Part shown: positions 7,185-31,429 of the stretch, piece after piece
How the letters are laid out: the number at the start of each line of letters is the position of its first letter
How positions within the stretch are numbered: the first letter of the stretch is position 1
IMG/VR virus record: IMGVR_UViG_3300010334_002378
Coordinates: 1 to 31,868 of that record
Length of the DNA: 31,868 nucleotides
Reading direction: 5' to 3' (one strand)
DNA from: a virus
The notes under the pieces: generated by a model
The model's input: the letters and a program-made list of their open reading frames with translations, nothing else
Database searches by the model: none
What the model was told of the DNA's origin: nothing
Translations under genes and position numbers: made by a program

Positions 7185-8260
7185 AAACAATACTAAATAA
7201 AAAAAATGTAGACTACACATCGCAGCCATTGTTTATGGGTGAAGACCTTTCACTACAAAGATATGACAGGTTCAAATATCCAGTATTCTTTGATCTTTAT
7301 AAGAAACAGCTTGAGTTCTTTTGGAGGCCAGAAGAAATTGAACTTAAAAAAGATCGCAACGATTTTAAAAATGACGATATAATGAGTCCAAACGAGAAGT
7401 TTATTTTTACTTCTAATCTATTATATCAAACAGCTTTGGATAGCGTTATCTGTCGCGGAGTACCAACACTGCTACAACATGTATCTAATCCAGAACTAGA
7501 AGCTTGCATGAACGTTTGGCAGTTTTTTGAGCAAATTCATAGTTATAGTTATACATATATAATTAAGAATGTATACAGTAATCCTACAGAAGTATTAGAT
7601 AGCTGCCTAACAAATGAAGAGATATTAAAGAGGTCAGAGGTAGCGGTCAGAGAATACAACTCACTTAGAAATATTGGGCATTCAGGTAAAAAAAATGACA
7701 TTAAAAAACAAATCTATCTTACGCTAATAAGTGTAAATATATTAGAAGCAATAAGATTTTATGTGTCATTTATATGTGCATTTGCTTTTGCTGAAAATAA
7801 GAAAATGATAGGTAATGCAGATATAATAAAACTAATAAAGCGTGATGAGGCATTACATTTGTATAATACTCAAGAAATAATTAAGATACTAAGAACAGTA
7901 CCAGAAGAAGGTTTTGTAGACATCGCAAAAGATTGCGAAGAAGAAGCTTGCAACATGTTTGATTCTGCCGCTAATGAAGAAAAGGCGTGGGCAGCATACT
8001 TATTTAAGGATGGATCTATAATAGGATTGAATGAAAAAGTTTTGTGCGAATATGTAGATTGGCTATGTATGAGCAGGCGTAAGAATATAGGATTACCATA
8101 CGAAAAGGGTAAGAAGAATCCTATATCTGGCTGGACTGACCCTTGGATGAATAGCGAAGCTGTACAGGTAGCACCACAAGAGCATGAGATAACATCATAC
8201 AAAATTGGTGCAAGTACAAACGATCTTGAACAAATTGACCTTGGAGAATTTTCACTATGA
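7181..8260 (+). CDS. nrdB: Class Ia ribonucleoside-diphosphate reductase, beta (radical) subunit
   Basis: The diiron-tyrosyl radical subunit that pairs with NrdA. I take ATG 7181 (ATGA overlap with the nrdA stop); a GTG at 7172 in the same frame would add three residues. From ATG 7181 the ligand set is visible: Asp87 (YQTALDS), Glu117 and His120 (FEQIHS), Glu205 (FAFAENK), and Glu223 and His226 (RDEALHL). The radical tyrosine is Tyr124, in the same E-x2-H-x3-Y arrangement as E. coli. About 359 residues against 376 in E. coli; the difference is mostly one short loop after the first helix pair. The acidic C-terminal tail (LEQIDLGEFSL) would dock onto NrdA. It overlaps the dUTPase gene by 4 bases. 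Confidence 0.96.
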   Translation: MKTILNKKNVDYTSQPLFMGEDLSLQRYDRFKYPVFFDLYKKQLEFFWRPEEIELKKDRNDFKNDDIMSPNEKFIFTSNLLYQTALDSVICRGVPTLLQHVSNPELEACMNVWQFFEQIHSYSYTYIIKNVYSNPTEVLDSCLTNEEILKRSEVAVREYNSLRNIGHSGKKNDIKKQIYLTLISVNILEAIRFYVSFICAFAFAENKKMIGNADIIKLIKRDEALHLYNTQEIIKILRTVPEEGFVDIAKDCEEEACNMFDSAANEEKAWAAYLFKDGSIIGLNEKVLCEYVDWLCMSRRKNIGLPYEKGKKNPISGWTDPWMNSEAVQVAPQEHEITSYKIGASTNDLEQIDLGEFSL

Positions 8261-8685
8261 AATATTCTATTAAAGTAACACCAGTAGATGTGCTAGCACA
8301 AGTTCCAACAAAAGCTCATCATAATGATGCTGGTTTTGATTTATATTCTACAGTTGATATCATAATCGAACCAAAACAAAGAAAGACCGTTAATACTGGG
8401 ATAACACTACAAATGCCAGACAATTTAGCTGGTTTAATATGGCCAAGATCTGGCCTATCTGTTAAACAGGGCATAGATGTTTTAGCTGGAGTAGTAGATA
8501 GTGGCTATAGGGGAGAGATAATGGTATGTCTATATAATACATCAGATAATGATGTGGTTATACGTACCGGGGATAGAGTCGCACAGATTATATTCCAAGA
8601 GGTTCCTCATGTAATTATGGAGGTCCATGAATCGTTAGGTTCCTCGCAACGCGGGAGTAACGGCTTTGGCAGCACAGGCACATAA
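8257..8685 (+). CDS. dut: dUTP diphosphatase (trimeric dUTPase)
   Basis: A 142-residue enzyme that hydrolyses dUTP to dUMP and PPi, supplying dTTP precursor and keeping uracil out of DNA. The five trimeric-dUTPase motifs are in order: AGFDLYS (25-31), the PRSGLSVKQG phosphate-binding segment, GVVDSGYRGEI with the catalytic Asp, GDRVAQIIF, and the C-terminal RGSNGFGSTG arm. Length is typical. It sits directly after nrdB with a 4-base overlap, which fits a nucleotide-supply operon. The last 20 bases overlap the start of phoH. Confidence 0.96.
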   Translation: MKYSIKVTPVDVLAQVPTKAHHNDAGFDLYSTVDIIIEPKQRKTVNTGITLQMPDNLAGLIWPRSGLSVKQGIDVLAGVVDSGYRGEIMVCLYNTSDNDVVIRTGDRVAQIIFQEVPHVIMEVHESLGSSQRGSNGFGSTGT

Positions 8686-9343
8686 CAACAGAAAAAAACG
8701 TCAAGAAGAAAAAAAACCTAAACAAAACAATCTGGAAGCCAAGACAGAGAACCAAAAAAAATATATAAGACTAATTGTAGAAAATGATATTATTTTTTGT
8801 TCAGGCCCGTCTGGAAGTGGCAAGTCATTTATTGCTGCTGGATTAGCAGCACAAAAATTACTTAAAGATGAAATAGATACACTAATCATTACTAGACCGT
8901 TAGTATGCACTGGTAAAGATATAGGTTCATTACCTGGAGAATTAGGAGATAAAATAAAACCATATTTACAGCCTATGGAAGAAAATTTAAAATACTTTCT
9001 AGGAAGAGATAAGTTTGGTTTATATTTTAATCAACGTAGAATTAGGTTTGAGCCACTAGAAACAATGAGAGGCTCTACATTTCATAACGCATTTATGATA
9101 TTAGACGAAGCTCAAAATTGCACACTAGAACAAATAAAAATGTTTATTACAAGAATGGGTCAAGATTCTAAAGTAATAATTAATGGAGATATTAAACAAA
9201 CAGATTTATATAGGGATAGCGGACTAGATTTCTGTATAGATAGATTATCTCAAGTTCACGGTGTAGGTATATGCAAATTGGACTATAATGATATACAGAG
9301 AAATGGAATACTAGGAGCTGTTTTATACGCCTTGGAGAAGTAA
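8666..9343 (+). CDS. phoH: PhoH-like ATPase
   Basis: A 225-residue P-loop ATPase of the PhoH family, frequent in phages. Walker A is GPSGSGKS at 47-54 and Walker B is MILDEAQN at 144-151. GSTFHN before Walker B is also typical. The family is related to helicase superfamily 1 and is thought to act on RNA or in phosphate stress; its role in phage is not settled. The start is TTG 8666, inside the end of the dUTPase gene, with GGGAG at 8653-8657. The N-terminal ~30 residues are Lys/Gln-rich and may be flexible. It lacks the N-terminal PIN domain of PhoH2 proteins. Confidence 0.9.
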   Translation: MAAQAHNNRKKRQEEKKPKQNNLEAKTENQKKYIRLIVENDIIFCSGPSGSGKSFIAAGLAAQKLLKDEIDTLIITRPLVCTGKDIGSLPGELGDKIKPYLQPMEENLKYFLGRDKFGLYFNQRRIRFEPLETMRGSTFHNAFMILDEAQNCTLEQIKMFITRMGQDSKVIINGDIKQTDLYRDSGLDFCIDRLSQVHGVGICKLDYNDIQRNGILGAVLYALEK

Positions 9344-18751: not shown

Positions 18752-19294
18752 ATGAATAAATCAATTTCTCAATTATTAAAAGAACAAGAAAGAAAATCTA
18801 TGAATATTAAAGCTCAAACCGTTCAAGGTTATTCATCAAATGATGTTATAGAATTAATGAAAAAATCTCTAAATATACACTGGCAGCAAACCACCGTTTT
18901 GTCTGCACAAGCAGTACATTTGGAAAGATGGGGCTATAAAAAGTTAGCTGCTATTTTTAAAGAAGATGCTATACAAGAACAACAACACGCAATGATAAAT
19001 TTAACTAGATTAGAATTTTTTGATCAAGATTATCAACCCTTAACAGTGGCTCCACCATCATGGACAAGGCATGATATGCTAGAAATTATTAACTATAATC
19101 TAGCTTCTGTTAGAGAAGCTTCCGCAACAGAAAGAGCAACCATTGTTGCTGCTATGGAGATTGGAGATCAAATTACAGTACAAATGTTTATTGAATTACT
19201 ACAAGGTAGCGAAGATGGTATTGAACTATATGAAGGATATTTAAAACTTATTGAGCAAATGGGAATTGATAATTTCCTAACTCTACAGGTATAA
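18752..19294 (+). CDS. Bacterioferritin/ferritin-like four-helix protein with degenerate metal site
   Basis: A 180-residue protein. Residues 30-178 follow the bacterioferritin layout by eye. ERWGYKKLAAIFKEDAIQEQ (58-77) matches [20 protein letters not shown] of E. coli Bfr. The C-terminal LYEGYLKLIEQMGIDNFL (159-176) matches LETELDLIQKMGLQNYL. The first ferroxidase pair survives as Glu76 and His79 (EQQH). The position of Bfr Glu18 is His43, and those of Glu127 and His130 appear to be Ser153 and Gly156. The haem-ligand Met52 position is Gln77. Iron oxidation as in Bfr is therefore doubtful; a structural or DNA-protecting (Dps-like) role is possible. An N-terminal extension of about 25 residues is unlike Bfr. 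Confidence 0.6.
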   Translation: MNKSISQLLKEQERKSMNIKAQTVQGYSSNDVIELMKKSLNIHWQQTTVLSAQAVHLERWGYKKLAAIFKEDAIQEQQHAMINLTRLEFFDQDYQPLTVAPPSWTRHDMLEIINYNLASVREASATERATIVAAMEIGDQITVQMFIELLQGSEDGIELYEGYLKLIEQMGIDNFLTLQV

Positions 19295-19324
19295 ATGTAT
19301 CTAGATTAAAAGCTTAGAAATTAC

Positions 19325-19386
19325 TATAAATATGATTCTTACGTATAAAGATTGTTCAGGCAACTTGCTTACCTAAACGCTATAAT
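19325..19386 (+). promoter_or_regulatory. Candidate promoter elements upstream of the Ig-like gene
   Basis: TATAAATA at 19325-19332 equals the T4 late-promoter -10 consensus, and a separate TATAAT at 19381-19386 equals the sigma-70 -10 consensus. No good -35 box lies 16-18 bases before TATAAT (TTGCTT is only 10 bases away). In AT-rich DNA such matches arise often by chance. The case rests mainly on position: this is one of few real gaps, and an isolated gene with its own terminator-like hairpin follows. Confidence 0.25.
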
Positions 19387-19901: not shown

Positions 19902-21482
19902 ATGTTGAATTGGTTTCCGTTAAATAACTACACTCACTACAGTTTGCTAAAAGGTTTTTCAAAACCAAAAGAATTAGCAAAGCTATGTAAAGAAAAGGGC
20001 TATCCAGCTTGTGGTATTACTGACTACAAGACCATATCTGGATGCGTATCTTTTTACAGAGCTTGCAAAGACGTTGGCGTAAAACCAATATTGGGATGTT
20101 CTTTTGATGGATATAATTTATACGCAAAGAACAAAGACGGGTGGCATAATCTTATTGAAATTATTTCATCGATAGATGAGAATGGTAATATAGACAATAA
20201 ATTTGTTGAAACTATACTAAAGCAAAGTAATCTTATTTATCTTGAGCGTAGTATAGATATACCGACAAGTTTTTATTGCTACAAAGATCAAGCTAACCTA
20301 CACAGGATTTTGCTTTGCTCAGAATTAAAAACAACACTTCCAAATATTGCAAAACAAATACGTAAAAATGAACTTGATAATAATATATCTCAGTTTTTTA
20401 CCAATGAAGATCATTATGTAATGGCTGGAAAACCATCAAAGGTGCTTGAAGATATTTACAACCAGTGTGAAGACTATGATATATTGAATAAGCCAATCCT
20501 ACCAAAATTTAAATGTCCAAATAATTTGTCAGAAGAAGATTACTTAAAAGAGTTGTGCAGAAGGGGTTGGAAATCATTACTAATTGACAAAGGCAAAGTG
20601 TCTGATGAAGTAAACAAGCAAAAGTATTTAGATAGATTCAAAGAAGAGTTCGATGTAATAAAAAACGCAAATCTTTTTGGATATTTCTTAATTGTGCAAG
20701 ATATAATAAAACATGTTCATGATAGTAATTGGTTGTCTGGACCGGGAAGAGGATCGGCGGCTGGTTGTTTAATATCATATTTAATAGGCATTACTCAAAT
20801 AGATCCTATTGAATTTGATCTTCTGTTTGCCAGATTTTATAACGCTGGCAGAAATACAGATGACCACATTTCTCTACCAGATATAGACATAGATGTTCCA
20901 GCTAATCATAGAGATGATGTTATTAAATATCTTAAAGACAAATACGGTAACGACAGGGTTAGTCAAATGATTACATTTGGTAGACTGCAAGGAAGGAGTG
21001 CTATCAAAGAAGTATTGAGAGTAAATGAAGCTTGCTCTTTTGCAGAAATGAATGCTATAACAAAAGTTATACCAAACGAAGCAGAGATATCAGACCAGTT
21101 AGCAGAAATGGATGACGATGATAGATCTATTATTAGGTGGGCGTTAATAAATAATGCAGATGAGCTTCAAGATTTTTGTAGAATAAACGACGATGGATCA
21201 CTAGATGGAGACTATGCTGAATACTTTGAGCAGGCTATTAAATTAGAGGGTACTTTTAAAACTCAAGGAAAACATGCTGCTGGTGTTGTTATATCTAAAG
21301 AACCATTACACAAAGTATGCCCAATGGTTAAGCAGAAAGGTTCATCAGAAAAAATTGCAGGATTAGAAATGGTAGACCTAGAAGCTCTAGGGCATGTAAA
21401 GTTTGATGTATTAGGTTTAACTTTACTTGATAAGATAATGTATGTAGAATATATCACAAAAAAGGAAAATATACATGGCTAA
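19902..21482 (+). CDS. dnaE: DNA polymerase III alpha (DnaE), N-terminal half: PHP and catalytic palm
   Basis: A 526-residue family C polymerase half. The PHP domain comes first (GITDYKTISGCVSFYRAC, about 38-55). The palm follows with GPGRGSAAGCLISYLIGIT (about 282-300) and LPDIDIDV, whose Asp329 and Asp331 match E. coli Asp401 and Asp403. The third catalytic Asp is Asp502 in KFDVLGL (E. coli Asp555). The protein stops about 20 residues after that motif, in the linker before the fingers; the rest is encoded at 22479-24038. In the PHP domain the usual LHxHS metal motif reads LNNYTHYS, so both first histidines are replaced (Asn8, Tyr10) and its own proofreading is unlikely. Its stop overlaps the exonuclease start by 8 bases. 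Confidence 0.9.
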   Translation: MLNWFPLNNYTHYSLLKGFSKPKELAKLCKEKGYPACGITDYKTISGCVSFYRACKDVGVKPILGCSFDGYNLYAKNKDGWHNLIEIISSIDENGNIDNKFVETILKQSNLIYLERSIDIPTSFYCYKDQANLHRILLCSELKTTLPNIAKQIRKNELDNNISQFFTNEDHYVMAGKPSKVLEDIYNQCEDYDILNKPILPKFKCPNNLSEEDYLKELCRRGWKSLLIDKGKVSDEVNKQKYLDRFKEEFDVIKNANLFGYFLIVQDIIKHVHDSNWLSGPGRGSAAGCLISYLIGITQIDPIEFDLLFARFYNAGRNTDDHISLPDIDIDVPANHRDDVIKYLKDKYGNDRVSQMITFGRLQGRSAIKEVLRVNEACSFAEMNAITKVIPNEAEISDQLAEMDDDDRSIIRWALINNADELQDFCRINDDGSLDGDYAEYFEQAIKLEGTFKTQGKHAAGVVISKEPLHKVCPMVKQKGSSEKIAGLEMVDLEALGHVKFDVLGLTLLDKIMYVEYITKKENIHG

Positions 21483-22155
21483 TAGAGACTACATAATTTT
21501 TGACTTTGAAACGGGATCTCGTAATCCTCATAAAACTCAACCTACGCAAATTGCCGCAATAGCATTAGATGGTAGGGATTTATCTGTAAAGGGTACATTT
21601 AATAGTGAGATTAAACCATTATTAAATGACGAAGAGGCCATTGCTGCTGGGTTAGATCCAATCGAAGATGGAGCTTTAAAAGTAACTGGCAAGACTAGAG
21701 AAAAGCTAGAAGAGGCACCAGCGTTAAAGTCCGTGTGGAGTAAGTTCACTAAATTTGTTGATCAATATAATTGGAAGGGTGAGCCATTTTTTAATCCTAT
21801 ACCAGTTGGATATAATATCATAGGATTTGACTTAATTATTGTAAATAGATTATGCCAAGAGTTTGGACCTTGGGATAAAACAAAAGATCAACCCAAATTA
21901 TTTAGTAGGGTTTATAAAGTAGATTTAATGGATAATGTTTTTATGTGGACTGAAGCAGATCCTAGTGTTAGATCTATTAGTATGGATTCTTTAAGAGAAA
22001 AGATGGGATTAAGTTTAGAGAATGCTCACGATGCTTTACAAGACGTAAAGGATACGGCCAATATATTTATTAAACTTTTGAAAACACATAGAGCGGTATA
22101 TCAAAACATAGAATTTGATAAAGCTTTTGCTAACGGTAACTTGTATGTTAAGTAA
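21475..22155 (+). CDS. DnaQ-like DEDDh 3'-5' exonuclease
   Basis: A 226-residue exonuclease. ExoI is FDFETG (Asp10, Glu12). ExoII is GYNIIGFDLIIVN (Asn114, Asp119). ExoIII is AHDALQDVKDT (His185, Asp190), making it the DEDDh type used for polymerase proofreading. It lies between the two halves of DnaE and is translated by overlap with the first half. It very probably supplies the proofreading that the degenerate PHP domain cannot give, acting in trans like E. coli epsilon. No clamp-binding motif could be recognised with confidence. RNase T-like or other exonuclease roles remain possible. Confidence 0.88.
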   Translation: MANRDYIIFDFETGSRNPHKTQPTQIAAIALDGRDLSVKGTFNSEIKPLLNDEEAIAAGLDPIEDGALKVTGKTREKLEEAPALKSVWSKFTKFVDQYNWKGEPFFNPIPVGYNIIGFDLIIVNRLCQEFGPWDKTKDQPKLFSRVYKVDLMDNVFMWTEADPSVRSISMDSLREKMGLSLENAHDALQDVKDTANIFIKLLKTHRAVYQNIEFDKAFANGNLYVK

Positions 22156-22489
22156 GACATGTATTTACTGTAAGAAAAAAAAGAATATAAATCAATTTCC
22201 TAAACATAGCATGTACAAGGATAAGCTTGACATGAGATGTAGAAGCTGTATAAAAGAACACGCATCTATAAGAAGGGATTTACATAAAAAGGCACCAAGC
22301 AAACCAAAATTATGCGAATGTTGCAAAAAGATTCCAATCAAGTGGTGTTTAGATCATGATCATGAAACTAATGAATTTAGAGGATGGTTATGCGAACGTT
22401 GTAATACGGGGCTTGGTAAACTAGGGGATAATATAGAAGGCATAGTAAACGCATTGAATTATTTGTTGGGTAAAAATAATGGAATATAA
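22145..22489 (+). CDS. Recombination endonuclease VII-like (HNH/His-Me finger) nuclease
   Basis: I place the start at ATG 22145, overlapping the exonuclease stop; the frame is open to a TTG at 22115. The 114-residue product has the endonuclease VII core: a CxxC pair (Cys57, Cys60), CLDHDHETNEFRGWLCERCN (68-87) with the His-Asp-His catalytic centre and the second CxxC (Cys83, Cys86), then LGKLGDN. An additional N-terminal pair of CxxC motifs (Cys6/9, Cys32/35) could hold a second zinc. T4 gp49 resolves branched DNA, but small relatives in phages often act as free-standing homing nucleases. Its position between the halves of a broken polymerase gene favours the homing view. Confidence 0.85.
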   Translation: MLSKTCIYCKKKKNINQFPKHSMYKDKLDMRCRSCIKEHASIRRDLHKKAPSKPKLCECCKKIPIKWCLDHDHETNEFRGWLCERCNTGLGKLGDNIEGIVNALNYLLGKNNGI

Positions 22490-24038
22490 TGATAAAAAAA
22501 CGTGGAAGCTTTTTGCTGAAGGAAGAACTAAAGGTATTTTTCAGTTAGAAAGCAATCTAGGTAAATCTTGGTCTAAGAAATTGGCACCAAACAACCTAGA
22601 AGAACTTTCTGCATTAATAGCTATTATAAGACCAGGAACTCTTAAATCTATGTTAGATGGAAAGTCTATGACTCAACACTATGTAGATAGAAAACATGGC
22701 AGGGAAGAAGTTACTTATTTACACTCAGCACTTGAAGATATACTTAAACCAACTTATGGAGTTTTAGTTTATCAAGAACAGTCTATGCGTATTGCTGAGA
22801 AAATAGCCGGTTTCAATCTACAAGAAGCTGACGTTCTTCGTAAGGCGATTGGAAAAAAGAAGGCTGACCTTATGAATGAAGTAAAAAAATCATTTATAGC
22901 GGGCGCAGAGCGCGTTGGAATCGTTTCTAAGGAAGAGGCAGAGCAGATTTTCGGATGGATTGAAAAGTCATCAAGGTACGCATTCAATAAATCGCATAGT
23001 ATATCATACGCCGCTTGTTCGTATTGGAGTGCCTATTACAAAGCTCATCATACAGACGAGTTTTTCTTATCATATCTATATCACGCTATAGAAAAACAAG
23101 ATCCACATCAAGAAATATATGAATTAGTTTCAGAGGCAAAGCTGTTTGATATTCAGGTAGCAACGCCTAGCCTAAAACATTTCGAAGAAAAGTTTAACCT
23201 AAAAAATGGGAAGATTTTCTTTGGCATAAAAGATATTAAATCTCTTTCTGGAAAAACTGGGGATGCTGTAGTAATCGCAATACGCTCAGTTGAAGAAGAA
23301 CAAAAGAAAAAAATAACAGAATTTACATGGCTAGAAATATTACTATATTTTGGCAGCAAGATAGGCTCTACAGCATTTAAATCATTAGCTTCTGTGGGAT
23401 TTTTTAGGGATTTTAATGGTTCTATTAGTAGAACTAGAGCTTTATATGAATATGAAATTTTTAGGACATTAACTGCCTCAGAGCAAAAATGGCTATCAGA
23501 AGAGTATAATACGATGAAGTGGCCTAATTTATTAGAAGCCCTTAAGTCTTTAGCACCAGTAAAAAAACTTGGTGGAGGAACTAGCAAAAAAGAAAGACAG
23601 CAAGTTGTAGAAAATGAGATTCAACTGCTCCTTAATCCACCATACGGATTAGAAGATAGTATTAAATGGATTATTGATCAAGAAATAAAGTTTCTAGGTT
23701 GTCCAATAACACTAACCAAGGTAGAAACAGTTGATACATCTTTAGCAAATACAACATGCAAAGAAATTATAAATGGCAAAAGGGGTGCTAATATTTGTAT
23801 AGTGGCAAATATAAAAGCTATATCAGAATATACGGTTAAGAACGGCGAATCTAAAGGACAAAAGATGGCATTTTTGACTATTGAAGATGACACATGCGCC
23901 CTAGATAACGTTGTAGCTTTTCCATCAGTCAAAGAAAAATATAAGTATATTCTTTATGAAGGTAATAATTTAGTATTATGTTGTAATACAAAAGGTAAGA
24001 ATGACTCGTTAATCATTGAAAAAATTATGGAGACATAG
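22479..24038 (+). CDS. dnaE: DNA polymerase III alpha (DnaE), C-terminal half: fingers to OB domain
   Basis: A 519-residue continuation of the polymerase at 19902-21482. It begins MEYNDKKTWKLFAEG, where intact DnaE has the DDKKTWxLF stretch, then FQLES (21-25), RPGTL, YVDRKHGREEVTY, PTYGVLVYQEQSMRIAEKIA, LRKAIGKKK and AFNKSHSISYA (168-178). A helix-hairpin-helix-like region follows, then an OB fold (about 440-515, VANIKAISEYTVKNGESKGQ). The catalytic aspartates are all in the other half, so this part cannot polymerise alone. The two halves sum to 1,045 residues (E. coli 1,160), so little is lost. ATG 22479 overlaps the nuclease stop by 11 bases. Confidence 0.9.
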   Translation: MEYNDKKTWKLFAEGRTKGIFQLESNLGKSWSKKLAPNNLEELSALIAIIRPGTLKSMLDGKSMTQHYVDRKHGREEVTYLHSALEDILKPTYGVLVYQEQSMRIAEKIAGFNLQEADVLRKAIGKKKADLMNEVKKSFIAGAERVGIVSKEEAEQIFGWIEKSSRYAFNKSHSISYAACSYWSAYYKAHHTDEFFLSYLYHAIEKQDPHQEIYELVSEAKLFDIQVATPSLKHFEEKFNLKNGKIFFGIKDIKSLSGKTGDAVVIAIRSVEEEQKKKITEFTWLEILLYFGSKIGSTAFKSLASVGFFRDFNGSISRTRALYEYEIFRTLTASEQKWLSEEYNTMKWPNLLEALKSLAPVKKLGGGTSKKERQQVVENEIQLLLNPPYGLEDSIKWIIDQEIKFLGCPITLTKVETVDTSLANTTCKEIINGKRGANICIVANIKAISEYTVKNGESKGQKMAFLTIEDDTCALDNVVAFPSVKEKYKYILYEGNNLVLCCNTKGKNDSLIIEKIMET

Positions 24039-24039
24039 A

Positions 24040-24354
24040 ATGAATTCTTGTTTATTTACTGGATACTTAACAGAAGATCCAATTGTCAGTAAAATGGATG
24101 GGGTTACTTTGGCAGAGTTTATATTAGTAGTCTATTCTTACAGAAAAACTAAAAGTACTGGAGAAAAAACAAAATTAGCCACACATATTTACTGTGAAGC
24201 TTGGCACACAGGCGCTGAAACTATTGCAAAGTTTGCTAAAAAGGGAACTAAAATAACCATCAATGCTAGTGCAAGACAGGTAGAAAAAAATGATGACAGA
24301 ATAGTATTTAGAATTAACGAATTTGATATTTGTAATCTAGAAAATAGAGAATAA
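24040..24354 (+). CDS. ssb: Single-stranded DNA-binding protein
   Basis: I place the start at ATG 24040, with TGGAGA just upstream; codons before it overlap the polymerase gene. The 104-residue product is a bacterial-type OB-fold SSB: MNSCLFTGYLTEDPIVSKMD, then LAEFILVVYSYRK, HIYCEAWHTGAETIAKFAKK (the CEAWGxxAE.. family signature), then KGTKITINASARQVEKND. It lacks the disordered tail and acidic tip (DDDIPF-like) that cellular SSB uses to recruit partners. It lies one base after the polymerase C-half, completing the replisome block. Confidence 0.85.
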   Translation: MNSCLFTGYLTEDPIVSKMDGVTLAEFILVVYSYRKTKSTGEKTKLATHIYCEAWHTGAETIAKFAKKGTKITINASARQVEKNDDRIVFRINEFDICNLENRE

Positions 24355-24358
24355 TACT

Positions 24359-26020
24359 ATGAGGAAAAAAAGAATATTGTTTTGTAGCGAAGCTACATTT
24401 TTAAACACTGGATATGCTACTTATACTAGAGAGATATTAAACTATTTACATAGTACTAATAAGTATGAGATAGCAGAAATGGCTTCGTATGGAAGTAGGC
24501 ATGATCCAAGAGGTACAAATTTGCCTTGGAAATACTACGGTGTTGCTCCAGACGATCAGTGTTCTAAAGAAGAACATGATGCTTATAATTCAATTCCCAC
24601 TAATCAGTTTGGTGAATTTATCTTCAACGATGTGTGTCTTGATTTTAAGCCAGATGTTGTTTGTGACATAAGAGATTTTTGGATGTTAGACTTTGTTGAA
24701 AGATCTCCATTTAGAAACTTTTTTAAGTGGGCTATTATGCCCACCGTAGACGCTGCGCCACAAGCTCGTCAATGGATTGCTACTTATGCTAATGCTGATG
24801 CATGTTTTACATACTCTGATTGGGCTGGCAAGGTATTAATTGATCAATCTGGTGGCAAAATTAATTACCTAGGTAGTGCGCCACCATCTGCTGATCCAGC
24901 TTATAAGCCCATAGAAAACAAAGAAGCGTTAAGAGAAAGCTTGGGTTTAAATCCTAATATAAAAATTATTGGCACAGTGATGAGAAATCAGCGTAGAAAG
25001 TTATATCCAGATTTGTTTAAAGCTTTTAAGAAATTCTTATCATTAGTACCAGATCCAGAGAATTACTTCTTATATTGTCATACAAGTTATCCAGATCTAG
25101 GTTGGGATTTACCAGAATTAATTCAGGAAAATGAATTAGCAAGTAAGGTATATTTTACATACATATGTCCAGATACAAAACAGCCGTTTCCTAGTCTATT
25201 TAGAGGGGCTGTAACAGTTTCTCCCTTCACACAAAAATATGGAGCAACCGTTTCTAGCGTTAAGAATGGGGCAAGTTACGAACATCTATCAATGATAATG
25301 AATCTTTTTGATTTATATGTTCAATATGCTAACTGCGAAGGGTTTGGACTCCCACAGGTAGAGGCTGCGGCTTGTGGAGTACCAGTTATGTCCACTGATT
25401 ATTCAGCAATGGAAAGTGTTGTGCGTCAACTTGGCGGAACTCCGCTAACTCCAAAGGCTTTATATAAAGAACTAGAAACTGGATGTATGAGAGCGGTTCC
25501 AGACAATGATCTTGCGGCTCAAAAGTTCTTAGAATTTTTTCAAAAGACAAAAGAAGAAAGAGAAGCTTTAGGTCTAAGAACAAGAGAATTATTTGAACAG
25601 CAATTCCAGTGGCATATTAGCGGCGGGCAGTGGGAAAAGTATTTTGATAGTATAGATATTATTCCAGAGGAAAAATCTTGGAAGTCGCCACCTAGAATTT
25701 CTTATCCCGCCCAACCATTAACAGAAGATCAGTTAAACAATGTTTCTAATTATCAACAATTAGCTCAGTGGTTAATAGTTGAAGTTTTAAGAGAGCCAGA
25801 AAAATTAAATACTTTTCTAGAAGCTAGATTGATTAGAGATCTAACTTATAAAACATCTACTGCGACCACAGGAGGAATGTATTATAATGAAAGTTCAGCA
25901 GCGTTTGATAACAAGCGATTAACACCATTCTCATTTGAGGATGCTTATAAGCACTTTTCATCACTTTGTGAGAGAAGAAATCATTGGGAACAAAAAAGAT
26001 TAAAGGTTATTAATCAATGA
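24359..26020 (+). CDS. GT4-type (GT-B) glycosyltransferase with C-terminal extension
   Basis: A 553-residue enzyme. The N-terminus RILFCSEATFLNTGYATYTR is a GT-B acceptor-domain start. The donor domain shows IGTVMRNQRRK (about 201-211) and the GT4 E-x7-E motif as Glu327-GFGLPQV-Glu335, followed by AAACGVPVMSTDYSAMESVV. The last ~100 residues extend beyond a normal GT4 domain and look helical. It probably transfers a sugar from a nucleotide donor to a phage or host glycan. It is the first gene of the glycosylation cluster, 4 bases after ssb. Confidence 0.82.
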   Translation: MRKKRILFCSEATFLNTGYATYTREILNYLHSTNKYEIAEMASYGSRHDPRGTNLPWKYYGVAPDDQCSKEEHDAYNSIPTNQFGEFIFNDVCLDFKPDVVCDIRDFWMLDFVERSPFRNFFKWAIMPTVDAAPQARQWIATYANADACFTYSDWAGKVLIDQSGGKINYLGSAPPSADPAYKPIENKEALRESLGLNPNIKIIGTVMRNQRRKLYPDLFKAFKKFLSLVPDPENYFLYCHTSYPDLGWDLPELIQENELASKVYFTYICPDTKQPFPSLFRGAVTVSPFTQKYGATVSSVKNGASYEHLSMIMNLFDLYVQYANCEGFGLPQVEAAACGVPVMSTDYSAMESVVRQLGGTPLTPKALYKELETGCMRAVPDNDLAAQKFLEFFQKTKEEREALGLRTRELFEQQFQWHISGGQWEKYFDSIDIIPEEKSWKSPPRISYPAQPLTEDQLNNVSNYQQLAQWLIVEVLREPEKLNTFLEARLIRDLTYKTSTATTGGMYYNESSAAFDNKRLTPFSFEDAYKHFSSLCERRNHWEQKRLKVINQ

Positions 26021-26649
26021 AAGTGATATGCGTTTCAAACTATGAAGATGATTTTACTAACATATATAATATAGTCTATCCGCATAATAAAGTTTATTTT
26101 GATAGACACGGAATAGATTATAGGGTAGTAAAAACATCAAGTAATGAAACTATGCAGAAAAAGTATTGGGAAAAAATCTTCCTAATCAAACAATGCTTAG
26201 AAGAAAAAACTCACGATTGGATTTTTTTACTTGATATTGATGCTATTATAGTAGATCAAAATATCGACATAAGAAATATCATTAATATGTCTAGGGAAAA
26301 AGCTGATATATTACTATGTCATACTAATTGTGATCCGCGAGAAAGATATTGGAATATTAATATTGGTTCTGTAATTTTCAAAAATAGTTCTTATAGCTTA
26401 GAAATTATTAACGAAATGATCCAACAGGGAAAAAACACAGAATTTTTATCATACGAACAGCCAATACTACAACGCATGTTAAAATACAATCATAACAATA
26501 TTTTAGAACACGCAGAAATATTTCCAGCAGAAGCCTTTAATCACGAAGGTAAGTTTATATATCACGCATGTAACATTAGCTCAACTAATGGAAACTTAAA
26601 AGATCAAATTAAATTAAAAGAAGAAGCATTAAGGAATATTATCAAATGA
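26017..26649 (+). CDS. GT-A glycosyltransferase (GT34/MNN10-like)
   Basis: A 210-residue protein. VICVSNYEDDF opens a Rossmann-like fold. YWEKIFLIKQCLEE followed by WIFLLDIDAIIVD gives the DxD metal motif (Asp73, Asp75). WNINIGSVIFKNS (about 109-121) is the typical N-x-G-x-F segment of GT34/GMA12-MNN10-type galactosyl/mannosyltransferases. HEGKFIYHACN near the end supplies a late His. It is compact but appears complete. ATGA overlaps with both neighbouring glycosyltransferases. Confidence 0.7.
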   Translation: MKVICVSNYEDDFTNIYNIVYPHNKVYFDRHGIDYRVVKTSSNETMQKKYWEKIFLIKQCLEEKTHDWIFLLDIDAIIVDQNIDIRNIINMSREKADILLCHTNCDPRERYWNINIGSVIFKNSSYSLEIINEMIQQGKNTEFLSYEQPILQRMLKYNHNNILEHAEIFPAEAFNHEGKFIYHACNISSTNGNLKDQIKLKEEALRNIIK

Positions 26650-27758
26650 ACATACTATATATTGGACATTATAAAGAGGGAAGTGGCTGGTCGCAAGCTG
26701 CAATAGACTATATTTTGGCATTAGATGCCGCTGGAGAGAATGTAGTCTGTAGAAATATTACGCTAACGAGGGATAATATTGATAATCTTCCTAGGCGTAT
26801 TTTAGAACTTGAAAAGAAAAATATTAATAATATAGACGTATGCATTCAACACGTTTTGCCACACCACCTAGTTCCCACAGAGAAATTTAAAAAGAATATC
26901 GCATACTTTGTTTTTGAATCAAGTACAATAAAACACATACCTTGGCTTGGCGCATTAAAGCAAATGGACGAAGTGTGGGTTCCAAACTCTGATGCAAAAA
27001 ATAGATTAATATCAGATGGTCTAAAAAATGTTAAAGTTTTACCACACACGTTTGATATGATAAAGTATAGAGGGTTTTATAATCATATAGCGTTTCCAGA
27101 TTTATCTACATTTAAGTTTTATACCATTCTAGATCTAAATGAGCGAAAGAATCTAGAGAGTATAATAAAATGTTTTCATTCAGAATTTAAAGAAAGTGAT
27201 AACGTAGACTTAGTATTGAAAGTAAAGAAATACGGAGTTAATGATGAAGCACTTTTTAGATACGTCAACGAATTCTGTTCTGATATTAAAAAGAAGTTAA
27301 GAATACATAAAGATGTAAATAGATATAAGCAAGAAATTATCATATGCGGCTCACTCAATGAGGAACAAATACTAAGTCTGCATAGTTCATGTAATTGTTT
27401 TATAAATGTATCTCATGGAGAAGCGTGGTCTATTCCTACATTTGACGCAATGTGTTTTGGCAATACTCCGATTGCCTGTAATGAGGGTGGCCCAAAAGAG
27501 TACATAGGCAACGAAAAAAATTCTGGCACATTAGTTAATGGAGTTTATTCAGTTTGCTGTCAACAGGATGCCGCTTTTGATTTTATATTTACTGGTAAAG
27601 AAGAGTGGTTTGTGCCAAGTGAAAGAGAGATAAAGGCCGCTATGAGATATTACTACGAAAATAGAGATAGCGTTAATAAAGATTATGGATTTGAGCAAGG
27701 TAAAAAATTCTCATATGACAATGTTGGAAAACTTATGAGGGACTATATAAATGAGTAA
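26646..27758 (+). CDS. GT4-like glycosyltransferase (E-x7-D variant)
   Basis: A 370-residue GT-B protein. It starts MNILYIGHYKEGSGWSQAAI, with the glycine-rich acceptor entry. VWVPNSDAKNRLISDGLKNV (about 111-130) and LPHTFD match the interdomain region of GT4 enzymes. The donor domain has the usual position of E-x7-E as Glu259-AWSIPTF-Asp267, so the second Glu is Asp. AMCFGNTPIACNEGGPKEYI follows as expected. The sugar is unknown. It overlaps the genes on both sides. Confidence 0.78.
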   Translation: MNILYIGHYKEGSGWSQAAIDYILALDAAGENVVCRNITLTRDNIDNLPRRILELEKKNINNIDVCIQHVLPHHLVPTEKFKKNIAYFVFESSTIKHIPWLGALKQMDEVWVPNSDAKNRLISDGLKNVKVLPHTFDMIKYRGFYNHIAFPDLSTFKFYTILDLNERKNLESIIKCFHSEFKESDNVDLVLKVKKYGVNDEALFRYVNEFCSDIKKKLRIHKDVNRYKQEIIICGSLNEEQILSLHSSCNCFINVSHGEAWSIPTFDAMCFGNTPIACNEGGPKEYIGNEKNSGTLVNGVYSVCCQQDAAFDFIFTGKEEWFVPSEREIKAAMRYYYENRDSVNKDYGFEQGKKFSYDNVGKLMRDYINE

Positions 27759-28740
27759 ATTAAGTAAGATAATCAGCTTGGCTAATAGTGAGAAGCCAGA
27801 AAAATATAGAATACTAACATTTCCCACACATGAAAGATATGAAACACAGTTATGCAAAACTGGTCATGAGTTTTATTCATTTCATCTCAAGGGCAGTAAG
27901 AAGTGGAATAAGGAACAGGTAGAAGTACCAGATAATTACCATATCTTGCCAGAGAACGAAGTGTCAAGTTATCTAGACTTTGACTTTATATTAGTTCAAA
28001 GTAAATTCTGGCAATATCAAGTTGCACAACAAATAAACGAAAGACTCCAACTACCAATAATAGTATTAGAGCATACAGTTCCAACGCCTCAAACTATTAG
28101 TAGAGAGCAATTTGAACAAATGAGACAGATGATTGGAAACAAAAATGTTTTTATATCTGAATATTCTAAGGGCGCTTGGGGAATTACATATAACACAAAA
28201 GTAATACATCATGGCCTAGATACTGAATCATTCAAGAATAATGGATTAACAAAACAAGAACATATACTTACAGTAGCAAACGATTTTGTAAAAAGAGATT
28301 ACTGCCTTAACTATTCTGGATGGAAAAGAATAACTGATGGTATATCTACAAAATTAATTGGAGATACTGAGGGTTTGTCAGAGCCAGCAAAAAGTACAGA
28401 AGATCTTATTAATGCATATAATGAGTGTGGCATATACCTTAATACTTCTATATTAAGTCCCATACCTATGTCTTTGTTAGAAGCAATGTCTTGTGGCTGT
28501 GCCGTTGTGTCTACAGCAACTTGTATGATTCCAGAGATAATAGAGAATGGTGTTAATGGCTTTATATCTAATGATGAATCTGAATTAAGATCATACATTA
28601 TAAAGCTACTAGAAGACAAAGATTTAAGAAATACTATTGGAAACAATGCTAGACAAACAATTGAAAATAGATTTTCTTTATCAAAATTTATAGACAGTTG
28701 GAATGACATATTTGATGAAACTTATGAGGAACAATTATGA
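27751..28740 (+). CDS. GT4-like glycosyltransferase
   Basis: A 329-residue GT-B protein. The N-terminal half is weakly conserved (FDFILVQSKFWQYQVAQQIN, then LEHTVPTPQ). VFISEYSKGAWGI and VIHHGLDTESF (about 131-158) mark the domain junction. The donor domain ends SPIPMSLLEAMSCGCAVVST with Glu244, then IPEIIENGVNGFIS. The first Glu of E-x7-E is replaced by Ser/Pro, so catalysis may differ. It lies in an unbroken run of overlapping sugar-transfer genes. Confidence 0.72.
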   Translation: MSKLSKIISLANSEKPEKYRILTFPTHERYETQLCKTGHEFYSFHLKGSKKWNKEQVEVPDNYHILPENEVSSYLDFDFILVQSKFWQYQVAQQINERLQLPIIVLEHTVPTPQTISREQFEQMRQMIGNKNVFISEYSKGAWGITYNTKVIHHGLDTESFKNNGLTKQEHILTVANDFVKRDYCLNYSGWKRITDGISTKLIGDTEGLSEPAKSTEDLINAYNECGIYLNTSILSPIPMSLLEAMSCGCAVVSTATCMIPEIIENGVNGFISNDESELRSYIIKLLEDKDLRNTIGNNARQTIENRFSLSKFIDSWNDIFDETYEEQL

Positions 28741-29165
28741 AACTATATATTACAAGCGATGTGGGTAAAAATATAAGTGGCTATGACACAATAGCTTTAC
28801 GTGACGGCAAATTTAATCTTGATGATATATCTAATAATTCGTGTGAAGAAATTATATTTATAGATGGACTTGAAACTATTAAAATTAGCGACTTGCAACA
28901 GGCATTGCATACTATATTTTCAAAAATGCGCTTTGGCTGCAAGTTAGTATTAAGTGGAGTAGACTTACATACATTGTCGCAATACGTATTGAATGGAAGC
29001 ATAGATATGGAAAATTATGCTAAGATAATAGAAAATAAAGTATTTATATCAGACTTATCAGAAATAAGAAATATATTAAAGTCTGCTGGTATAACAATAG
29101 AAAAAATTAATATGAAGGACATACACTATGAAATCTCAGCAAGAAGAAAAGCAATATCAAACTAA
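28737..29165 (+). CDS. Methyltransferase-like protein lacking the SAM-binding half
   Basis: A 142-residue protein that looks like the C-terminal half of a class I SAM-dependent methyltransferase (Methyltransf_11-like). It has CEEIIFIDGLETI, then LHTIFSKMRFGCKLVLSGVD, equivalent to the lkpGGxlvi strand, then IRNILKSAGITIEKI, equivalent to the final hairpin. The N-terminal GxGxG glycine loop that binds SAM is absent; only about 40 residues precede the half-domain. It may be a non-catalytic remnant, or work with a partner. Overlaps on both sides show it is kept in the operon. Confidence 0.5.
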   Translation: MKLYITSDVGKNISGYDTIALRDGKFNLDDISNNSCEEIIFIDGLETIKISDLQQALHTIFSKMRFGCKLVLSGVDLHTLSQYVLNGSIDMENYAKIIENKVFISDLSEIRNILKSAGITIEKINMKDIHYEISARRKAISN

Positions 29166-29880
29166 TTGTTTAGATTGTGCTTGCGCAATATATAAGGAAA
29201 ACAAGCAAACTGGTTGCGCAGTCAAAAGACTAGACAATTTTGTTAAAAGGGGTGAGGCGCGAGTTCTAACACAAGAAGATAAAGAGTCATATATAATAAC
29301 TAGAATATGCAACGCCTACAGAAGTCCAGCTTGGAATAATGGAAAACTAGACACTGACTTATTACTTAAAGAAGTGTCGCAAACTTTTGGTATTATAATA
29401 GATACTAATGGGATGACGAGAGAAATAGCAGACAATATATATGATAAGATAATGTCATCAAGCTATGACAAATCTAAATTAACTATAGTGCTAAGTAGTT
29501 CAATAGCTTCTAAAAATATTCATAACGTACTACATCTATTTCATAGGTTAATAAACTTTCCTGTAAAAACTATTACTATGAATTACGTAGAAGATTCTTT
29601 TAATCTATTTGTAAGACAGGTAATGAAGCACACTATATCTAATAGTTTTATATATTATACTTCCACGGGCATAGAACTATTTGACTTATCGTTATTAAAT
29701 ACTATAAATGACTTAATAAGTGTTCAAATGGAAAAACTTGCTGTAATTGAGACAGACAAAAATAAGTTCATCTTAACCAAAGGTTTTAAAGATTATCTAA
29801 ATACGTGTCCTAGTTATTGGATGTCATTAGACAATTTTGTGCAACTATCTAAAGATGTTGGATATTATAAAAAGATATGA
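29128..29880 (+). CDS. Cys-cluster protein with degenerate GT2-like domain
   Basis: A 250-residue protein. The N-terminus has a compact cysteine group: NCLDCACAIYKENKQTGCAV (C14, C17, C19, C31) and RICNAYRSP (about Cys62), which could bind zinc or an iron-sulfur cluster. The rest (about 95-250) has alternating strands and helices (LTIVLSSSIAS, FIYYTSTGIELFD, KFILTKGFKDYL) like a GT-A domain, but no DxD motif is evident. The start ATG lies 38 bases inside the previous gene. The fusion of a metal-type cluster with a glycosyltransferase-like fold is unusual. I cannot name the function. Confidence 0.45.
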   Translation: MKSQQEEKQYQTNCLDCACAIYKENKQTGCAVKRLDNFVKRGEARVLTQEDKESYIITRICNAYRSPAWNNGKLDTDLLLKEVSQTFGIIIDTNGMTREIADNIYDKIMSSSYDKSKLTIVLSSSIASKNIHNVLHLFHRLINFPVKTITMNYVEDSFNLFVRQVMKHTISNSFIYYTSTGIELFDLSLLNTINDLISVQMEKLAVIETDKNKFILTKGFKDYLNTCPSYWMSLDNFVQLSKDVGYYKKI

Positions 29881-30587
29881 ATATAACAAAAAAACACATC
29901 CATTTAATAAAGAATACAAATGCAGCAAAAGATAATTTTGTTAGTATTATTATACTTGCTGATAGAATAAACAGAGATAAAAAAAACAATATATCATATC
30001 TGTCTACTGTAAAAAACAAATCTATTATCGACATACAATTATCCCATATACTAAATACTTTCAAAAATTCAGAAATAATAATCTCTATAAACAATGAACA
30101 ACACGATCTATTAAACTATATTAAGTCATCATATGCTTCAAAAAATATAAGATTTGTAGAGAACTGTTCTACTAGCGACACCAATGATTCAGAAAGTCTT
30201 AGATTATGTCTCAATAATATATATAATGATAAGATTATAGTCATCAAGGGCGGAATCTTATTCCCACTTCATGATCTATCAAAAATAGATTTAAATAAAT
30301 CTGGAATTATAATTGGCCCACTAGACCAAAGGTTTGAGGTTGGAGTAATATATAATGAGAAGCAAAATTTAGATCATTTGGGATTTGGTCTAAGCAACTC
30401 ATGGATGGAAATATTTTGGATAAATAATACACATGGAATAAATGTATTAAGAAGTATAGTTTCTTCTAAGCTCTATAAGAAAAAATTTATATTTGAAGCT
30501 TTAAACGATCTTGTAGAATTAAAAAAACATAAACTACACACACATTTCATCAACAATATAACAACGAATAATTTCGGAGGAATTTAA
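29877..30587 (+). CDS. Degenerate sugar-nucleotidyltransferase-like protein
   Basis: A 236-residue protein. The N-terminal VSIIILADRI, then SIIDIQLSHILNTFKNSEII and ISINN, follow the order of an NTP-transferase fold (strand, P-loop position, PxxDxQL helix, next strand). The GxGxRxxPxTxxxPK signature is absent, so nucleotidyl transfer is unlikely. KIIVIKGGILFPLHD is a later core strand. It may instead be a non-catalytic GT-A relative. ATGA overlap with the gene before; it ends sharing a base with the next gene. Confidence 0.4.
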   Translation: MNITKKHIHLIKNTNAAKDNFVSIIILADRINRDKKNNISYLSTVKNKSIIDIQLSHILNTFKNSEIIISINNEQHDLLNYIKSSYASKNIRFVENCSTSDTNDSESLRLCLNNIYNDKIIVIKGGILFPLHDLSKIDLNKSGIIIGPLDQRFEVGVIYNEKQNLDHLGFGLSNSWMEIFWINNTHGINVLRSIVSSKLYKKKFIFEALNDLVELKKHKLHTHFINNITTNNFGGI

Positions 30588-31429
30588 TGAAGGCGATTGT
30601 ACAAAATTATGTTACAGCATTCAGTACTGAGTCGATGTATATAACAGAAACTATCAATAGAATCAGTGGGTGTAGCGCAGCATATTGGAAGAATAATATC
30701 AGTGCGTATGATATTTTTGATACTGTAAAACCAGACATATTTTTTACACACGCATCATTCTTGAAAAGGGATACTGTAGAATATTTGTCTAATAATGCTA
30801 ATATTGAATGCATATTTAATATAACTGGACTTAACCAAGATATTGTCAATAATATAAATAATTTAATTAAAGATCAAAATATCAAATGTCCATTGCTGTA
30901 TACTAATGAGCTAAACAAAAGTCTTAAATCCAAAATTAATTTACAGTATATACCATTAGGATTTGATCAATACAATCCCATTATTCGTGAAATTCCTGAG
31001 TATAAAATAGATCTAGGATGTTTTAGTATAAGCAAAGAGGTAAGCGTACCAGAAGAATTTAAGACATATCATATTCTTGGGTCAGTATCAAATGCTGATA
31101 TCAAAAGTACAATTTTAGAAATACCAAGTCTTTGTACTAGATATAAAAATTTTGTTATCTACGATGATAGTAATATTGTGTCTCAAGCGTTTTATACTAG
31201 CTTATATCATGGCACACCCACCTATTACCACACCAGTAACGAAAAGATTAAACAGGCTATAAAAAATATAACTAAATCTGAAAATACCTTTGATATAAAC
31301 AATAAAGAAGAGTATCAATGGAGGGATATACAAGAACAAATTAAGAGTAAGCATACTGGTGCGAACAGAGTAAAGACAATGTTCTCTAACTTTAGTCATG
31401 ATATAGCAACTAAGATAGAAATACTATGA
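30587..31429 (+). CDS. GT-B/CgeB-like glycosyltransferase-related protein
   Basis: A 280-residue protein with GGAGG 7 bases before ATG. The N-terminal half has IFFTHASFLKRDTVEYL and IFNITGLNQ, and the centre YIPLGFDQYNP is like the GT-B domain junction (xxPxGxDxxxF). The second half has YDDSNIVSQAFYTSLYHGTP, resembling the donor-site loop of CgeB-type and other short GT-B proteins. Classic E-x7-E is absent. It probably acts in, or derives from, the same glycan pathway. Confidence 0.5.
   Translation: MKAIVQNYVTAFSTESMYITETINRISGCSAAYWKNNISAYDIFDTVKPDIFFTHASFLKRDTVEYLSNNANIECIFNITGLNQDIVNNINNLIKDQNIKCPLLYTNELNKSLKSKINLQYIPLGFDQYNPIIREIPEYKIDLGCFSISKEVSVPEEFKTYHILGSVSNADIKSTILEIPSLCTRYKNFVIYDDSNIVSQAFYTSLYHGTPTYYHTSNEKIKQAIKNITKSENTFDINNKEEYQWRDIQEQIKSKHTGANRVKTMFSNFSHDIATKIEIL

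Follow-up and report, generated by a model that had tools for sequence, protein, structure and literature searches.

In the viral DNA analyzed here, a 31,868-nucleotide stretch spanning positions 1 to 31,868 of the IMG/VR virus record IMGVR_UViG_3300010334_002378 (hereafter the window), a family C DNA polymerase related to the alpha subunit of DNA polymerase III (Pol III alpha, or DnaE) is encoded by two separate genes that enclose a gene for a DEDDh 3'-5' exonuclease. We refer to the two halves of DnaE as N and C, to the exonuclease gene as X and to the endonuclease VII-like gene that follows it as H. Taken together, the evidence makes it probable that N and C form an intein-free Pol III alpha that depends on two separate chains and is proofread by X, and that H is a homing endonuclease that arrived later.

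The division of DnaE proposed in the initial annotation, with PHP, palm and three catalytic aspartates on the first half, agrees with both the Pfam matches and the alignment. The N chain (19902..21482, plus strand, 526 aa) matches the Pfam families PHP (7.7e-19, 69 bits against a cut-off of 26.4) and DNA_pol3_alpha (3e-69, 234 bits, cut-off 23.9), and comprises a degenerate PHP domain, the palm and the thumb. The C chain (22479..24038, plus strand, 519 aa) matches DNA_pol3_finger (1e-47, 162 bits, cut-off 22) and contains the fingers, the HhH-like region, for which the Pfam HhH match falls below its cut-off, and the OB region. The family C domain order of PHP, DNA_pol3_alpha and finger is kept, spread over two chains. 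All three catalytic residues, Asp329, Asp331 and Asp502, reside on N and are invariant in 144 of the 144 related loci that cover them. Profiles against the Protein Data Bank (PDB), structural models and the substitution rates given below further support the assignment of both chains.

The split itself lies in the palm-to-fingers linker. Matches to PDB profiles end at residue 636 of Taq DnaE for N and begin at residue 641 for C, with N terminating about 20 residues past the motif KFDVLGL and C starting about 15-20 residues ahead of FQLES. Joining the halves costs few residues, which bears out the earlier expectation of a nearly continuous DnaE. When the chains were modeled singly with AlphaFold, N (mean predicted local distance difference test score, pLDDT, of 82) and C (mean pLDDT of 83) each matched Pol III alpha in the PDB, N with E 1.2e-29 (E. 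coli and Taq) and C with E 7.1e-21. As each half matches Pol III alpha by fold, each is a plausible folding unit. C showed no clear clamp-binding motif.

The 996 bp between the N stop and the C start hold X (21475..22155, plus strand, 226 aa) and H (22145..22489, plus strand, 114 aa), in keeping with the original description of an interval of about 1 kb occupied by an exonuclease and an endonuclease with overlapping ends. The overlaps measure 8 nt at N/X, 11 nt at X/H and 11 nt at H/C. X begins at an ATG within the overlap with the N stop, and the ATG of C overlaps the stop of H. The start of H is most likely the ATG at 22145 rather than the mechanically assigned TTG at 22115.

Distribution and conservation of the N-X-C arrangement

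IMG/VR was scanned twice with proteins and twice with profiles, each time to the best 80 matches, and 148 distinct loci with N, X and C were obtained. N and C are separate genes in all 148, X lies between them in every case and none is fused, and pairwise identity within the set extends down to about 30%. Contig L002 has the same arrangement with all four proteins 98-99% identical to those of the window. Recurrence of the same order in L002 and in 148 distinct loci shows that the arrangement reflects neither chance nor misassembly.

Among the DnaEs examined, 74 of 74 from bacteria and most of those from isolate phages are encoded by a single gene. The initial annotation had envisaged close relatives in which dnaE is unsplit and the intervening genes are missing; none were found in IMG/VR, the GTDB species genomes or INPHARED at the sensitivity used, where identity to the nearest unsplit DnaEs is at most about 30-37%. 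In a 50-row tree built by a quick method, the polymerases with both the split and X form one side of a single branch with a support of 100 in the Shimodaira-Hasegawa-like approximate likelihood ratio test (SH-aLRT). Given this single, fully supported branch, the arrangement most likely arose once in the lineage and has been retained since.

Measured against relatives, the ratio of nonsynonymous to synonymous substitution rates (dN/dS) comes to 0.05-0.07 in N, about 0.03 in X and 0.06-0.10 in C. The three proteins evolve in step, as their distances correlate with one another (r about 0.90). An apparent discordance between N and C distances was traced to truncated contigs, such as L003, L014 and L021. 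The 16 relatives' contigs of 122-174 kb carry one family C palm gene each, which in G012 is in two pieces owing to a split intein, and none of the 16 contains a family A or B polymerase or a second family C polymerase. A full-length dnaE elsewhere in the genome, which the initial annotation had named as the sign that these halves are remnants, was therefore absent from these contigs. DnaN (PF02768) likewise gave no match in the 16 long contigs. Searches for a T4-type clamp (PF02916) and gp23 (PF07068) were negative as well, but they carry no weight, as the controls gave no match either.

Exonuclease X, endonuclease H and the gene junctions

X matches Pfam RNase_T above its cut-off (5e-15) and phrog_192, annotated as 'DNA polymerase exonuclease subunit' (3e-26). 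Its DEDDh residues D10, E12, D119, H185 and D190 are kept in 147-148 of the 148 loci, and it is better conserved than either N or C. In the N protein of the window, the PHP metal-binding motifs have been lost. By simple motif matching, 29 loci have every element of the PHP motif, 6 have almost every element and 111 have not one, and in these 111 about 100 residues are deleted. X is intact in the loci with the PHP motif elements and in those without them alike. In bacteria, HHDHEH[C/H]DH represents the active PHP motif, and DnaQ compensates for an inactive PHP (PMC12926913). The integrity of X whether PHP is kept or lost points to X as the proofreading activity, such that the subclade of the window could lose PHP catalysis. 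Synteny together with the loss of PHP thus makes X the likely proofreading subunit of the split polymerase.

H matches Pfam Endonuclease_7 above its cut-off (2e-13) and phrog_2633 (6e-23), and an EndoVII motif, LDHDH...R...CxxCN, can be read from its sequence. The initial annotation had regarded the exonuclease and the endonuclease as one cassette, a view that the junctions do not sustain, as X is present in every complete locus and H in a minority. Of the 148 loci, 91 have nothing inserted at the X/C junction and 33 have an EndoVII-type open reading frame (ORF) there, with HNH, glycosyltransferase, methyltransferase or other genes in the remainder. At the N/X junction, 79 loci are empty, 28 carry an ORF of about 60 aa (mainly in a divergent clade) and 41 carry other genes. 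A junction can be filled in one locus and empty in another of nearly the same sequence: in L004 compared with L043, flanks that are 97.8% and 96.1% identical surround an FkbM-methyltransferase gene situated exactly at N/X.

In loci free of inserts, the X/C overlap is about 11 nt and the N/X overlap 8 nt, and a GGA(G)-type ribosome site often precedes X; translation of N, X and C is likely to be coupled. The window has H where other loci have the X/C overlap, and H opens with ATGTTAA..., the same start as that of C in several relatives. Given this shared start and the overlap of the ATG of C with the stop of H, H is a passenger at a gene boundary. It is optional and probably a later acquisition, and the simplest explanation is that it belongs to the free-standing DHHRN enzymes, homing endonucleases with an EndoVII motif that include F-CphI (PMC6083498). 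Like these enzymes, H is small, free-standing, equipped with an EndoVII-type motif and located beside an essential gene (PMC6083498). H could instead be a resolvase or plain cargo.

Several other occupants of the junctions were observed. The N/X gap of L111-L145 (for example L122, 5021-5203) contains the conserved ORF of about 60 aa, which has an SCC motif and no Pfam or PHROG match, and the C half of this divergent clade opens with an extra CGC motif. L056 and L066 have a different ORF, of 74 aa, at N/X. A DUF1559/type IV pilin-like gene (1e-42) lies between X and C in L142 (3704-4777), a 65 kb viral contig, and represents either an unusual cargo or a chimeric contig. In L136 the X/C gap reaches 3.6 kb.

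Inteins in dnaE and alternative explanations

No intein half was matched at the N/C split, where the sequence leaves no room for one, and no Rfam intron family was matched there. Other sites of dnaE do carry inteins. In seven contigs (L053, L054, L062, L119, L124, L127 and L137), L053 among them at 5995-8762, the N half is split again at GPGRG/SAAG (the slash marking the break), with clear split-intein halves in the form of CF(L/V)P... on the N piece and ...VHN/S on the C piece, and mostly with a nuclease-like ORF nearby or between the halves. This second split is found in two distant subclades, and near-identical relatives lack it: the pairs L053 and L043, and L119 and L121, present occupied versus empty sites in DNA that is about 94-97% identical. 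In L196 (8473-12109), the C half has an in-frame intein at RPG/C and, at FNK/S, a split intein accompanied by its own ORF, a site close to the split-intein site of cyanobacterial DnaE. The intein splits are sporadic and could be repaired by the intein halves that they carry. The N/C split, in contrast, is bare and has become fixed, and this difference argues strongly for N and C functioning as two subunits.

Of the other explanations, the one that retains some credibility, while still unlikely, accepts the two-chain polymerase but takes X to be an unrelated nuclease, serving host DNA breakdown, recombination or primer removal and kept for co-expression. The resemblance of X to DnaQ/PolC-type and exonuclease I folds is weak, and the few homologs of X found in isolate phages are 23-31% identical and have no annotated dnaE adjoining; against this, X sits between the polymerase halves in every locus, surpasses both of them in conservation, stays intact even where the subclade has no PHP nuclease site left and belongs to a family, phrog_192, annotated for this very role. 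We consider it very unlikely that an exonuclease and an endonuclease entered an intact dnaE together as a single homing cassette, the picture first drawn for this locus. The splitting of phage genes by homing endonucleases has precedent (PMC2988022), and in the window X and H both lie inside the split with overlapping ends. Most loci, however, have X without H, the X/C junction being empty in the majority, other genes occupy both N/X and X/C, and X is under strong purifying selection; with X fixed and H optional, one mobile cassette was rejected.

In cyanobacteria, a split intein joins the two parts of DnaE, and this precedent, along with the split inteins of relatives at other sites of the same gene, might suggest that the halves are united into one mature chain after translation or transcription, be it by a split intein, an intron or a frameshift. 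The prospect is even more improbable than that of a cassette. No intein half fits between the end of N beyond KFDVLGL and the start of C ahead of FQLES, and the overlaps of 8-11 nt at insert-free junctions mean that any intron, for which no family was matched, would have to be the X coding sequence; a split intein or intron at this site was accordingly excluded. Least probable of all is that another polymerase serves the phage and that N and C are either remnants in decay or products of faulty assembly. The window is a 31.9 kb fragment, and its own genome is only partly searchable, but the independent contig at 98-99% identity and the 148 loci of the same order exclude an assembly error, including the rearrangement that the initial annotation had raised, while the dN/dS values of 0.03-0.10 and the absence of a further polymerase of family A, B or C from the 16 long contigs exclude a pseudogene or remnant.

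Some considerations nonetheless count against a two-chain Pol III alpha that is proofread by X. The similarity of X to solved exonucleases of the DnaQ/PolC type is weak. An unsplit intermediate sister clade may be hidden beyond the best 80 matches of the scans. Finally, the long contigs come from uncultured phages and may be incomplete, so that a polymerase from a family outside the search may have escaped notice.

Relation to known split polymerases and implications

The system resembles bacterial Pol III alpha with DnaQ/epsilon in its family C fold, Asp triad, order of fingers and OB regions and separate DEDDh exonuclease subunit. It departs from the bacterial enzyme in its two-chain catalytic subunit, in the placement of the exonuclease gene between the halves, in an identity of about 30-37% at best and, in the subclade of the window, in the loss of the PHP site. 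Cyanobacterial DnaE is likewise encoded by two genes, and some relatives in the clade have split inteins at other dnaE sites, but the N/C split has no intein halves and occupies a different site in the protein. Comparable systems are gp43A/43B of Aeromonas phages 25 and 44RR and NrdA of Aeh1, in which an essential phage replication gene is permanently encoded as two intein-free chains. The bare split enzymes of Aeh1 (NrdA) and phage 25 (gp43A/43B) are active, with their halves working together (PMC2988022). In contrast to the system described here, gp43 is a family B polymerase and NrdA a ribonucleotide reductase, and their inserts are an endonuclease gene or untranslated sequence rather than a proofreader; the N/C split, for its part, is fixed throughout a wide clade. 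Other divided phage polymerases include the family B polymerase of MIJ3, which has a split intein (PMC6892783), and the DNA polymerases of OM43 phages, which are split around a small ORF (PMC10580990).

Two cultured phages also have a family C polymerase in two ORFs according to their deposited annotations. In Rossellomorea phage phiT1 (PV767480), dnaE is split at the same palm/fingers linker with a 49-aa ORF between the halves, and in Bacillus phage KLEB27-3 (OM634661) it is split at a slightly different site, just past the FQ(L)E motif, with an HNH gene between. Both lack X between the halves and fall outside the split-and-X clade in the tree. A split DnaE as such is not confined to the lineage of the window, but a fixed family C split with an exonuclease inside appears to be undescribed. 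In the open-licence literature, we found no paper on an intein-free family C split or on one enclosing an exonuclease, nor any that names KLEB27-3. Separately, the dnaE of Bacillus phage Jayan (PQ299153.1, 30698-34105; L343) is annotated as two genes with a gap of about 270 bp near the catalytic PDxDxD motif, possibly an unannotated intron, and is whole in the similar phage PS1.

An SSB-like gene (24040..24354, plus strand; Pfam SSB 2.5e-8) lies directly downstream of C and is likely part of the same operon, and upstream are a UvsX/RecA-like gene, a DnaB-type helicase, a primase, a ribonucleotide reductase, PhoH and a deoxynucleoside monophosphate kinase. Just 5' of dnaE is a ferritin-like gene (18752-19294; Pfam Ferritin 2.3e-12), and the stretch 18754-19378 is absent from L002, a relative that is 97% identical. 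A sulfotransferase gene (342-1031; Pfam 1e-19) is located near one end of the window, and a run of genes resembling glycosyltransferases follows dnaE (24359-31429, of which 26017-26649 was checked against Pfam); together these suggest modification of surface sugars.

We propose that the phage would copy its DNA with a family C polymerase permanently encoded as two polypeptides, N providing PHP, palm, thumb and the full catalytic triad and C providing the fingers, HhH-like and OB regions. A cut at the palm/fingers linker would leave each chain a near-complete structural unit, and the chains would associate non-covalently; the original expectation that the halves must work in trans is supported in this respect, and assembly in trans is likely, with N and C together presumably active as a polymerase. 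X, encoded between the halves, would be the proofreading subunit of the same enzyme, overlapping stop and start codons would couple translation and help to balance the three subunits, and H, predicted to be capable of homing, would have settled at the X/C boundary later as a free-standing endonuclease. With somewhat less assurance, we lean toward a broader view in which uncultured phages of a deep clade all depend on a family C replicase of three subunits (N, C and the DEDDh exonuclease) with a permanent intein-free split, the subclade of the window having lost the PHP nuclease site and kept the exonuclease. As the same linker was apparently split independently in at least one cultured phage, it would be a natural weak point of Pol III alpha.

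Previously known split replicative polymerases comprise those of phage family B and the cyanobacterial DnaE that relies on a split intein. The N-X-C arrangement adds a stable, intein-free family C split that is fixed across a large clade, and it opens to testing the two-chain function of Pol III alpha, the reason why the palm/fingers linker tolerates a split and the possibility that the PHP proofreader can decay once a DEDDh exonuclease is encoded alongside. The dnaE of these phages also attracts split inteins and mobile nucleases, and it thereby offers a natural series that runs from the intein-repaired to the permanent split.

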